Positions 17,652 to 20,335 of a stretch of DNA of 46,316 bases are shown piece by piece. This stretch comes from Fidelibacterota bacterium (lineage in GTDB: Bacteria > Fidelibacterota > Marinisomatia > Marinisomatales > UBA1611): the NCBI GenBank assembly GCA_018671775.1, contig JABHGY010000126.1, positions 1 through 46,316 of the forward strand, written 5' to 3'. Position 1 is the first letter of the stretch. The number at the start of each line of letters is the position of its first letter. The position numbers and the translations under genes are program-made. The notes under the pieces are model-generated. The model was given only the letters and a program-made list of their open reading frames with translations. It was not told the origin of the DNA and did not search any database.

Positions 17652-17680
17652 TTGTTATAAATTAAGATTTAGGGGGGAAG

Positions 17681-17754
17681 TACCCCGGACAGGACTCGAA
17701 CCTGTGACCCTCTGCTTAGAAGGCAGATGCTCTATCCAGCTGAGCTACCGGGGC
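17681..17754 (-). tRNA. tRNA-Arg (anticodon TCT)
   Basis: On the minus strand the 74-base gene folds as a cloverleaf. The acceptor is GCCCCGG / CCGGGGT with a terminal G-T pair and discriminator A. The D-arm begins TAGCTCAGCTGGATAGAGC, the anticodon stem TCTGC/GCAGA encloses loop CTTCTAA, and the T-arm contains GGTTCGAGTCC. The anticodon TCT reads AGA. The 3' CCA is not encoded. Only a short variable loop is present (class I). Confidence 0.95.
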
Positions 17755-17850: not shown

Positions 17851-17872
17851 CTCTCCTCGAGCTCTCCTCGAG
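17851..17872. repeat. Tandem 11-bp direct repeat upstream of the repeat-protein promoter
   Basis: CTCTCCTCGAG occurs twice back to back (17851-17861 and 17862-17872), each copy ending in the palindrome CTCGAG. The second copy ends 7 bases before the -35 box. The period of 11 bp is one helical turn, as expected for a regulator binding the same face of DNA twice. Confidence 0.9.
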
Positions 17873-17879
17873 AAAATAC

Positions 17880-17909
17880 TTGACTTTATCAAAATTAATG
17901 CAGTACACT
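17880..17909 (+). promoter_or_regulatory. Sigma70-type promoter of the 75-residue repeat protein
   Basis: TTGACT at 17880-17885, 18-bp spacer, TACACT at 17904-17909, followed by a roughly 60-base leader. It is preceded directly by the tandem 11-bp repeats and followed by a 7-bp hairpin at 17920-17939 (GAGAGAA / TTCTCTC). The best promoter match I noticed in the window. Confidence 0.6.
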
Positions 17910-17976
17910 CTATTAAGGAGAGAGAATTGATTTTCTCTCGATAAACCACAAAAACGTAATAAAAGGGAGGTCTTAA

Positions 17977-18204
17977 ATGGCTGAAACAGTAAAACAAGTT
18001 GGCGTAAGCAAAGAAAAAGGATACTTATACTATCTCGGAAAAAATGGGAATGTATGGCGTTCTCAAATGGCTCGCGCTGGTAAAGGCGGTGGTAATGCAG
18101 AAGAAGTTGCAAAAGCTGGCGTTACACGTGAAAGCGGTTACCTTTACTATATTGATAAAAATGGAGATGTTTCCCGTTCGCCAATGGCTCGCGGTCGTAA
18201 ATAA
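17977..18204 (+). CDS. Small basic protein of two 32-residue repeats, function unknown
   Basis: 75 residues behind a very strong GGGAGG site. The protein is an internal duplication: residues 5-36 and 44-75 align without gaps with 19 of 32 identities. They share GYLYY, KNG, V, RS, MAR and a closing K, and are joined by a Gly-rich linker (GGGNAEE). Each unit looks like a beta-hairpin (YLYY strand, KNGN or KNGD turn, V.R strand) followed by a basic MAR.xK tail. No Cys, signal peptide or membrane segment is seen, and the net charge is basic, so nucleic-acid or acidic-partner binding is conceivable. The dedicated promoter, strong ribosome-binding site and tight terminator point to a highly expressed single-gene unit. 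I do not recognise a characterised family. Confidence 0.85.
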   Translation: MAETVKQVGVSKEKGYLYYLGKNGNVWRSQMARAGKGGGNAEEVAKAGVTRESGYLYYIDKNGDVSRSPMARGRK

Positions 18205-18219
18205 TAAATCCGTTAATCT

Positions 18220-18249
18220 AAAAAAGGCTCTCATTTGGGAGCCTTTTTT
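18220..18249 (+). terminator. Rho-independent terminator of the repeat-protein gene
   Basis: A-run, then GGCTCTC, loop ATTT, GGGAGCC and six T. The stem has one T-G pair, and it lies 15 bases after the stop codon. Confidence 0.88.
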
Positions 18250-18307
18250 ATTTATACTTTTAATTTAGCTTTGTATATTCCACGACTCAATAGAGCTTAG
18301 ATATTTT

Positions 18308-19039
18308 ATGAATCAAAAAATATTACTTATCATTGTCATGGTAATGGTTACAGTTCCCAAAATAAAAGGAGCAGATAACCCTTCACCTGAGGCACAATGG
18401 TTAAATAAAAATAAAACACTTGCTGTAAGCCAAGAAAGCAAGGAAGTTATTCCTGTGAAGGCGCTTCCGAATGGTTGGGTTTATAGAGATGAATTGCTTG
18501 CAAGTTGGGGTACAAATCTCCCTGCGGCGATTTCTATCATTCCGGATTCTACGATTCAGGTTGTTTATCAAGATGAAAGAAAAACAACAAAAGCGGGAAT
18601 TGTCTTACCGATTAAAAGAGCGTCTGTTACTTTCGATTACCCTGCGCGTCTTACTTTTGAACAAATTACACTGTCTTTCATAAATGTAGACTTTATTTAT
18701 AGTGCTACTAACAGTAGTGATTCACACTTTATCTTAGAAAAAATTACGAAAAAAATAAAACTGATAGATGAAGGGTTCCCAAAATTAACATCGGATGATA
18801 TTATTAAATTTAAAGTCCTCATGGAATATGGCACTCCAAAAGAATTTGATGGTGTTTGGCATACTTATGCCAATGATATATCTGGACTCAGAATTCGAAA
18901 ACTAGATGAAAGAACCCTTCAAATAGAAATGACAGGGTTAAAAATAAAAGGGCTGTTAGAAAAAGCCATTGATGATGTTTACAGTGAAGAGGGGATAGAA
19001 TATAAAAAGCGTTTAATGATGGATGGAATTGACCTCTAG
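18308..19039 (+). CDS. Exported protein of unknown function, partner of a BamA-like barrel
   Basis: 243 residues with an N-terminal signal peptide (KILLIIVMVMVTVPKIKGA) and no further membrane segments. The mature part mixes strands and short helices (IQVVYQDERK, RASVTFDYPARLTFEQITLSF, then a C-terminal LDERTLQIEMTGLKIKGLLEKAIDDV). No known domain is recognised. It ends 12 bases before a short Omp85-family gene, so the two are probably an operon and may work together in the periplasm or outer membrane. Confidence 0.65.
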   Translation: MNQKILLIIVMVMVTVPKIKGADNPSPEAQWLNKNKTLAVSQESKEVIPVKALPNGWVYRDELLASWGTNLPAAISIIPDSTIQVVYQDERKTTKAGIVLPIKRASVTFDYPARLTFEQITLSFINVDFIYSATNSSDSHFILEKITKKIKLIDEGFPKLTSDDIIKFKVLMEYGTPKEFDGVWHTYANDISGLRIRKLDERTLQIEMTGLKIKGLLEKAIDDVYSEEGIEYKKRLMMDGIDL

Positions 19040-19051
19040 GTTTTAATAAAG

Positions 19052-20335
19052 GTGATAAAATATTTTTATAACAGAAGGCCCGTTGGCCTTTTTTTATTTG
19101 CACTACATATATCTACAAATTTATGGGGTCAAATTGTTTCGGAAATCCAATTTATGGGTTTAAAAAAAACAAAACCATATATCGTCATGCGAGAAGTAGA
19201 GCAGACCAAAAATACACAATTAGATAGTGCGTTAGTTGTTGCAGACAGAGATCGCTTGGATAATTTAGGGCTTTTCAGTGAAATCAAATGGCAAATTGTC
19301 CCTTTAGAAGATGGTTCTGTTCGTTTACAATTTATGATAATTGAATCCTGGAATAACATGAAAGGGGCAATGCCTATGTATTCAGAAGAATACGGTTGGT
19401 CCGTTTCTGGTGGATATATTATAAAAAATTTTCGGGGTCGCAATCAAACCCTTAGTCTTGGCGGGAGTTTAGGCGGACAAAATACATACGGAATATCATT
19501 CTCTGATCCTTGGATTTTTGGGAATCATGTTTCTACAGAAATAGAGATTGGGAAAAGTATGAATAATCACTTATTCTTAGATTATAAAAAAAAAATAGCC
19601 TCATTGGGTATCTCTGTGGGGCGATATTATGGAAAATATATACGGGCGTCTTCTAAGATTGAATTTGAAAAAAAATCATTTGAAAACAATGCAAGTTTAA
19701 TATCGTACAAATACTTAAGTCTTATTGCTTCACTTGGATATGACTCTCGAGATATTTATTCCAACCCTAGCAAAGGTATTAAGGCAATAAATACGATTTA
19801 TTATCAAATTGACCATAGAAATGGACAAGAAAATCGTTTGGTATGGAATCAATCATTTAGTGTTTTTCATTCACTCATTCCAGGGGAAAAGAAGTTGGCC
19901 CTTGGATTAAATCTGGCGAATCAAATTAGCTTTGGCGATGATGAAGAGATTTGGTTGGATTATCTCGGTGGAAGTTATTCTGTAAGAGGATGGAAAATGC
20001 CCTCAAGAGAATTATACCAATCGGGCAATCAAAATTATCGGTTCGGGCATCACTGGCTACAAAGTTCAATTGAATTGAGACAAACAATCATTCCAAAATA
20101 TGCCACAAAATTTAAAAGTGAATTTGGTTTGGATTTGGGTTTATTTTTTGATGCTGGAATGAATGCAATGGAATTGAATCATTTATTAGAAAAAGATCCA
20201 TTATTGGGTATAGGCTTTGGAATTCGTATTCCTGCCCCCATGATGGGGATCCTTCGTTTAGATTATGGCTGGGCCTTTTATGAAGGAGAATTCATTGAAT
20301 CTTCCTTCCATTTAGCCATGGGACAACGCTTTTAA
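19052..20335 (+). CDS. BamA/TamA-family outer membrane protein with a short POTRA region
   Basis: 427 residues, probable GTG start. The signal peptide region ends LWGQ. It is followed by a single POTRA-like domain (IVSEIQFMGLKKTKPYIVMREVE, then DRDRLDNLGLFSEIKWQIV and LQFMIIE) and a C-terminal beta-barrel of about 300 residues ending in a terminal Phe (MGQRF), the usual beta-signal. BamA itself has five POTRA domains and about 800 residues, so this is a reduced Omp85 paralogue, perhaps for export or insertion of specific proteins. The SVRGWKMPSRELYQ segment resembles the conserved VRGY/F-R motif inside Omp85 barrels. Tail-to-tail overlap of 4 bases with plsY. Confidence 0.82.
   Translation: MIKYFYNRRPVGLFLFALHISTNLWGQIVSEIQFMGLKKTKPYIVMREVEQTKNTQLDSALVVADRDRLDNLGLFSEIKWQIVPLEDGSVRLQFMIIESWNNMKGAMPMYSEEYGWSVSGGYIIKNFRGRNQTLSLGGSLGGQNTYGISFSDPWIFGNHVSTEIEIGKSMNNHLFLDYKKKIASLGISVGRYYGKYIRASSKIEFEKKSFENNASLISYKYLSLIASLGYDSRDIYSNPSKGIKAINTIYYQIDHRNGQENRLVWNQSFSVFHSLIPGEKKLALGLNLANQISFGDDEEIWLDYLGGSYSVRGWKMPSRELYQSGNQNYRFGHHWLQSSIELRQTIIPKYATKFKSEFGLDLGLFFDAGMNAMELNHLLEKDPLLGIGFGIRIPAPMMGILRLDYGWAFYEGEFIESSFHLAMGQRF

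Follow-up and report, generated by a model that had tools for sequence, protein, structure and literature searches.

A conserved two-repeat protein of Neomarinimicrobiota and the array of near-palindromic boxes in its promoter: a candidate autoregulator

The gene for a small basic protein of 75 residues, part of the single-copy core of most Neomarinimicrobiota, was found to have in its promoter 9-bp near-palindromes, CTCGWCGAG, arranged as a phased array. Among the genomes searched, the pair of boxes at the upstream end of this array is nearly unique to the promoter of this gene. We consider the best explanation to be that the product is a sequence-specific DNA-binding protein which sets its own level through the box array, and we put the probability of this reading at about 0.5. 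The gene was analyzed in a stretch of 46,316 nucleotides (hereafter the window) from contig JABHGY010000126.1. The coordinates of the original prediction span the coding region; the array lies outside them. Gene control has been little studied in Neomarinimicrobiota (SAR406), which are widespread in the ocean and for the most part uncultured.

Results

The gene and its internal duplication

The open reading frame at 17977-18204 is a real gene. Its translation, MAETVKQVGVSKEKGYLYYLGKNGNVWRSQMARAGKGGGNAEEVAKAGVTRESGYLYYIDKNGDVSRSPMARGRK, has a computed pI of 9.9 and a net charge of about +6.5. Pairwise dN values between homologues were far below the dS values (for example, a dN of 0.012 at a dS of 1.15), and the gene is under strong purifying selection. 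The features of the locus are collected in Table 1.

Table 1. Features of the 75-residue protein gene, its flanking regions and the phage homologue
Feature	Position	Strand	Sequence or description	Basis
Operator box O1 (candidate)	17853..17861	+	CTCCTCGAG; -27 from the -35 hexamer	
Operator box O2 (candidate)	17864..17872	+	CTCCTCGAG; -16 from the -35 hexamer, 11 bp after O1	
Promoter	17880..17909	+	TTGACT-18-TACACT; -35 at 17880-17885, -10 at 17904-17909	Conserved in homologues
Predicted leader hairpin	17918..17939	+	9-bp stem, likely mRNA 5' end	Fold only
Ribosome-binding site	17965..17970	+	GGGAGG	SD-like sites also in homologues
CDS, 75-residue two-repeat protein	17977..18204	+		ORF, homologues, dN well below dS
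Repeat 1 (residues 5-36)	17989..18084	+	VKQVGVSKEKGYLYYLGKNGNVWRSQMARAGK	Self-alignment
Repeat 2 (residues 44-75)	18106..18201	+	VAKAGVTRESGYLYYIDKNGDVSRSPMARGRK	Self-alignment
Intrinsic terminator	18219..18250	+	14-bp stem, 4-nt loop, T tract	Similar hairpins after homologues displayed
Phage homologue	L131:5001-5228; L130:5001-5228; also L132			IMG/VR contigs

The gapless internal duplication that had been proposed from the sequence, with 19 of 32 positions identical, was confirmed. The self-score of the repeat was 106, far above the scores of 2000 shuffled sequences (mean 19.9, sd 4.2, maximum 45; z of about 21). The original prediction had also envisaged relatives with one to many repeat copies; two repeats were present in every full-length family member read, and the number is constant among them. 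The arginines R28, R33, R67, R72 and R74 are conserved. A natural member at L083:975-1187 has a Gly-rich linker shorter by four residues, which is useful for judging the constraints on the linker.

Occurrence in the phylum

The gene is present as a single copy in its own genome and in nearly all carrier genomes. Absence from closely related genomes, which had been named as an argument against the protein, was not what we observed: 53 of 61 relatives and 169 of 245 genomes of the phylum carry it. The wide conservation that had been named as supporting evidence was thus seen. A profile search matched 110 of the 150 Neomarinimicrobiota genomes that are at least 85% complete, a count in which the weak matches of G066 and G230 (E 0.02-0.03) are to be discounted. 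Identities in the 53 relatives and in these 110 genomes were 63-91%. The gene was consistently absent from some families such as f23, including the one-contig genome G063; this absence indicates that the gene family marks a subset of the lineages of the phylum. Families f22-f24 entirely lack the gene, and both loss and later origin are possible.

Outside the phylum, the searches covered samples of two phyla and one GTDB scan seeded by a pattern. A further 295 Bacteroidota and 298 Pseudomonadota genomes yielded no member, apart from a weak partial match (E 0.009) within a 751-residue frame of one Pseudomonadota genome. The only full-length matches in the Bacteroidota and Pseudomonadota searches came from G245 and G246, which are query-centre genomes and look mis-binned; they were not accepted as homologues from other phyla. 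In the GTDB scan, the named relatives among the best 80 of 216 were almost all labelled Candidatus Neomarinimicrobiota or Marinimicrobia, which places the window in a genome of this phylum; with these samples, rare members elsewhere may have been missed. The plasmid search yielded no member. The gene was also seen on contigs labelled Legionellales (L075, from G246), Cryomorphaceae (L076) and Thaumarchaeota (L060). L075 and L060 also show the typical Neomarinimicrobiota gene order, and mis-binning or mislabelling of MAG contigs seems likely for all three.

Predicted structure and family searches

AlphaFold2 models built first with 20 and later with 48 sequences of the family had pLDDT values of 88 and 91 and pTM values of 0.72 and 0.76, respectively. 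The predicted fold is all-beta, with six strands (residues 3-6, 16-20 and 26-30, followed by 39/41-45, 55-59 and 65-69) forming two copies of a three-strand unit, and no helix. Each unit had been read as a beta-hairpin with a basic tail. The beta-rich nature of the repeats agrees with the models; the hairpin with a tail alone does not, as three strands per unit are predicted.

Foldseek searches of the PDB and BFVD gave nothing at E of 0.001 or below, TM scores stayed under 0.4, and no fold of a DNA-binding protein was matched in these structure searches. Small beta proteins are difficult for fold searches, and this lack of a match is therefore weak evidence for a new fold. The whole protein of the window (P0001) exceeded no curated cut-off in Pfam-A or NCBIfam. 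Together with the PDB result, this upholds the view that it belongs to no characterised family. A literature search of open-licence PubMed Central papers turned up none on the protein or the box motif.

Several weak candidates were considered and rejected. The best weak Pfam match was the FaeA/PapI-like winged helix family (PF04703), matched by 15 of 20 members with a best E of 1.7e-4 in a search in which curated cut-offs are shown for P0001 only. P0001 reached 18.5 bits, short of the cut-off of 20.7, the match covered only residues 54-73, and no helix is predicted. The match to phrog_9154 (E 0.0014) was short and the family is unnamed. Weak matches were also obtained with choline-binding repeats, with DUF5050 and with a glucan-binding repeat; membership in the choline- or glucan-binding repeats was discarded because the scores of P0001 lay below the cut-off and no signal peptide was recognised by eye.

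The transcription unit and its neighbours

The promoter had been described as the best in the window. This proved incorrect: it has only 9 of 12 consensus matches, compared with 11 of 12 at two other sites and 10 of 12 at 17 sites. Many homologues throughout the phylum have CTTGACA-17/18-TACACT or TAACAT at 70-105 bp upstream of the ATG, and this conservation shows that it is a real promoter despite the score. The ribosome-binding site, AAAGGGAGGT, lies shortly upstream of the ATG, and 80 of 81 homologues likewise have an SD-like site before the gene. The strong ribosome-binding site and the tight terminator of the original prediction were thus both found. The promoter, SD site and terminator recur in the homologues displayed, in keeping with the proposed dedicated single-gene unit as judged from the sequences. 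A hairpin at the likely mRNA 5' end is also predicted in several leaders of the same family (L036, L038, L046 and L048); the leader hairpins may possibly act as mRNA stabilisers.

An Omp85-family gene (19052-20335 in the window) lies downstream on the same strand, about 0.25-3 kb away, in 56 of 81 loci. It is often preceded by a gene for a protein of the 243-residue type without a Pfam match. In the window, this protein is encoded at 18308-19039 and belongs to cluster 1, which is present in 40 of the 81 homologous loci. The genes upstream differ between lineages across the 81 loci; such variable neighbours indicate that no regulator gene is linked to the 75-residue protein gene. In the window, a tRNA-Arg gene (17680-17754) and a 2-oxoacid:ferredoxin oxidoreductase-like operon are found upstream, both on the opposite strand.

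The box array in the promoter

Side-by-side comparison of the upstream regions revealed recurrent CTCGTCGAG/CTCGACGAG boxes. In the 81 loci, the 170 bp preceding the gene contained 27 exact copies of CTCGWCGAG, and the remainder contained none. When up to two mismatches were allowed, 60 non-redundant promoters contained 90 boxes, compared with 13 expected (maximum 20). These boxes clustered at -27, -16, +8/9 and +31/32, counted from the first base of the -35 hexamer (O1 to O4, respectively). In a set of 119 promoters, which includes near relatives and loci entered twice and whose counts are hence not independent, O1, O2, O3 and O4 were found in 47, 65, 32 and 48 promoters, compared with 0, 1, 4.8 and 2.3 at shifted positions. 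The spacings were 11 bp for O1-O2, about 24 bp for O2-O3 and about 23 bp for O3-O4. The promoter of L041 has canonical boxes.

O3 and O4 were not recognisable in the promoter of the window. Cores of the boxes are retained even in deep-branching lineages: in families f26-f29 the O2 core CGACGG/A is kept 13-15 bp upstream of the -35 hexamer, and f20 members have an O3 core at +10 and often an O4 core at +32. By the criteria used here, a clear box was absent from some members, among them L084, L085, L090 and several in f16; the box calls rest on picking the best-scoring -35 hexamer, a choice that goes wrong in promoters such as L193-L195. Co-variation of box variants inside single promoters was weak and not clear. 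The array very probably regulates the promoter of the 75-residue protein gene.

Near-uniqueness of the box pair

The O1-O2 pattern was searched for in 101 genomes. It gave 32 matches in 23 genomes, a number that counts both strands of near-palindromic pairs; the reversed control gave none. Comparison of coordinates placed all 32 matches just upstream of the 75-residue protein gene, which was confirmed from the fetched locus for G085:C10. The own genome contained a single exact match to the pair, at this promoter, and two further matches with three mismatches that look like chance. The composite pattern CGWCGAGAAAA-TTGAC had 23 matches, 22 of which were at the promoter of the gene; the remaining one (G033:C100) falls inside a coding region and was rejected as a further target. 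The O2-O4 pattern matched at the promoter of the gene and at five other places, all in G041 and G110. The box pair is thus near-unique to this promoter among the genomes searched.

Exact single palindromes were not commoner than a control pattern in ten genomes, and the inspected copies outside the promoter lay mostly in coding sequence. A wide regulon for the box was rejected on these grounds. Three exact palindromes outside the promoter sit near tRNA-Leu genes. At L136:1417-1509 and L142:125-217, in two genomes, the CTCGACGAG palindrome abuts the 3' end of tRNA-Leu(taa), with a terminator-like hairpin after it. In a third genome (L149, about 1501-1509), roughly 100 bp separate it from the preceding tRNA-Leu(taa).

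A copy in phage contigs

Three IMG/VR contigs contained a two-repeat copy that is 51-58% identical. Repeat 1 of this copy lacks the RS-MAR motif, and the Gly-rich linker is also lost. Terminase-like and portal-like proteins were identified around it by reading the sequences. The cluster also encodes a Prok-JAB protein whose score is just under the cut-off, a ThiF/E1-like protein and one of 664 residues with no Pfam match. These neighbours indicate that the gene was taken up by a small lineage of tailed phages, whose host, judging from the 75-residue homologue alone, is probably a member of Neomarinimicrobiota. The CGWCG box was absent from 16 kb around the phage copy. A search of a separate phage collection gave matches at chance level only.

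Discussion

Over much of the phylum, the operator is confined to a single promoter in each genome, and no regulator is linked to it. The simplest binder of the boxes would therefore be the product of the gene itself. O3 and O4 overlap the core promoter, which makes repression likelier than activation. The two-repeat beta architecture, the basic charge, the single copy and the strong purifying selection were counted as further support, and the two near-identical halves of the protein would suit a near-palindromic box. The nucleic-acid binding that had been thought conceivable thus gains indirect support from the operator array and may be regarded as a putative function. Counted against autoregulation are the possibility that the boxes belong to an unlinked regulator, the lack of a fold match to DNA-binding proteins in the structure searches, the members without a clear box, the weak co-variation of box variants inside single promoters and the phage copy without the CGWCG box.

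The first of these points is the main rival explanation. The array could be the target of a separate, unlinked and dedicated regulator, perhaps responsive to growth or stress, the small protein being an effector with another job. Control of the promoter by the array, although very probable, does not fix the identity of the binder, and boxes upstream, in the spacer and at the start would suit any multi-site repressor. A regulator conserved over a phylum with a single target, yet never linked to it, would however be unusual, and the palindrome counts in the ten genomes disclose no wider regulon. We regard this explanation as somewhat unlikely.

Less probable still is an association of this small basic protein with the ribosome or with RNA, in which case it would be highly expressed and the boxes would provide growth-rate control. 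The protein is small, basic, single copy and nearly universal in its lineage, its size and charge are comparable to those of small lineage-specific ribosomal proteins, and the good SD site, the single-gene unit and the predicted leader hairpin would fit. The gene, however, lies outside any ribosomal operon, and whole families of the phylum do without it. Moreover, O1 and O2 are located upstream of the -35 hexamer, outside the transcript, which argues against feedback at the mRNA level. An envelope role, with the hairpins forming choline-binding or beta-propeller-like repeats for a carbohydrate or envelope ligand, is hinted at by the sub-threshold repeat matches and the frequent Omp85-family gene nearby and is very improbable, given the scores of P0001 below curated cut-offs, an N-terminus (MAETVKQVGV) without a signal peptide recognisable by eye, and the terminator between the gene and its downstream neighbour.

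Autoregulation by the 75-residue protein could be explained as follows. The product would be small, basic and all-beta, with two three-strand units in tandem, specific to Neomarinimicrobiota apart from the phage copy. Its near-identical halves would together make up a pseudo-twofold surface for recognition of the 9-bp near-palindrome CTCG-W-CGAG, several copies of which are phased from the region upstream of the -35 hexamer to the start of transcription at its own gene. At high levels of the protein, the boxes over the promoter would be filled and RNA polymerase blocked; at low levels, the promoter, the good ribosome-binding site and the single-gene unit would quickly restore its amount. Such feedback would fit a protein kept at a steady and probably high concentration, for instance one that is associated with the nucleoid or binds nucleic acids in general.

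Known systems offer partial parallels. MraZ consists of two tandem SpoVT/AbrB-like units and is reported to repress itself through several repeated boxes near its promoter. The present system resembles it in the tandem beta repeats and in the multiple boxes at the own promoter, which here are known from sequence with the product as the presumed binder. The 75-residue protein is, however, half the size of MraZ, has no detectable sequence relation to it and no predicted helix; its boxes are 9-bp near-palindromes and not simple direct repeats, and its gene lies outside the dcw cluster. No AbrB or MraZ profile matched P0001 up to an E of 10, and none was among the families listed for 20 members. 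MetJ and other ribbon-helix-helix autoregulators bind tandem short palindromic boxes, which are read by the beta-strands of a twofold protein. Short palindromic boxes in tandem are shared with them; the six predicted strands without a helix in both AlphaFold2 models argue that the 75-residue protein is not of this class. Fis is a small, basic, autoregulated nucleoid protein, several of whose own sites overlap a strong promoter. The likeness extends to size, charge and boxes overlapping the promoter, and a nucleoid role might be considered by analogy; Fis is helical, whereas the present protein is predicted to be all-beta. Less likely than autoregulation itself, though conceivable, is a new class of DNA-binding proteins, in which a helix-free pseudo-dimer of 75 residues, made of two three-strand units, would recognise a 9-bp palindrome, regulate itself through a phased array of four boxes and serve most of the phylum as a chromatin protein or global regulator, with a copy taken up by a phage.

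A core gene of the phylum is thus paired with a defined candidate DNA target, which makes the function of an orphan protein directly testable in vitro. The phage copy suggests that the protein acts at a step worth hijacking. If the 75-residue protein binds the boxes, its fold would be a new and small one among DNA-binding proteins, and most of the phylum would have in it a candidate for a nucleoid or regulatory protein.
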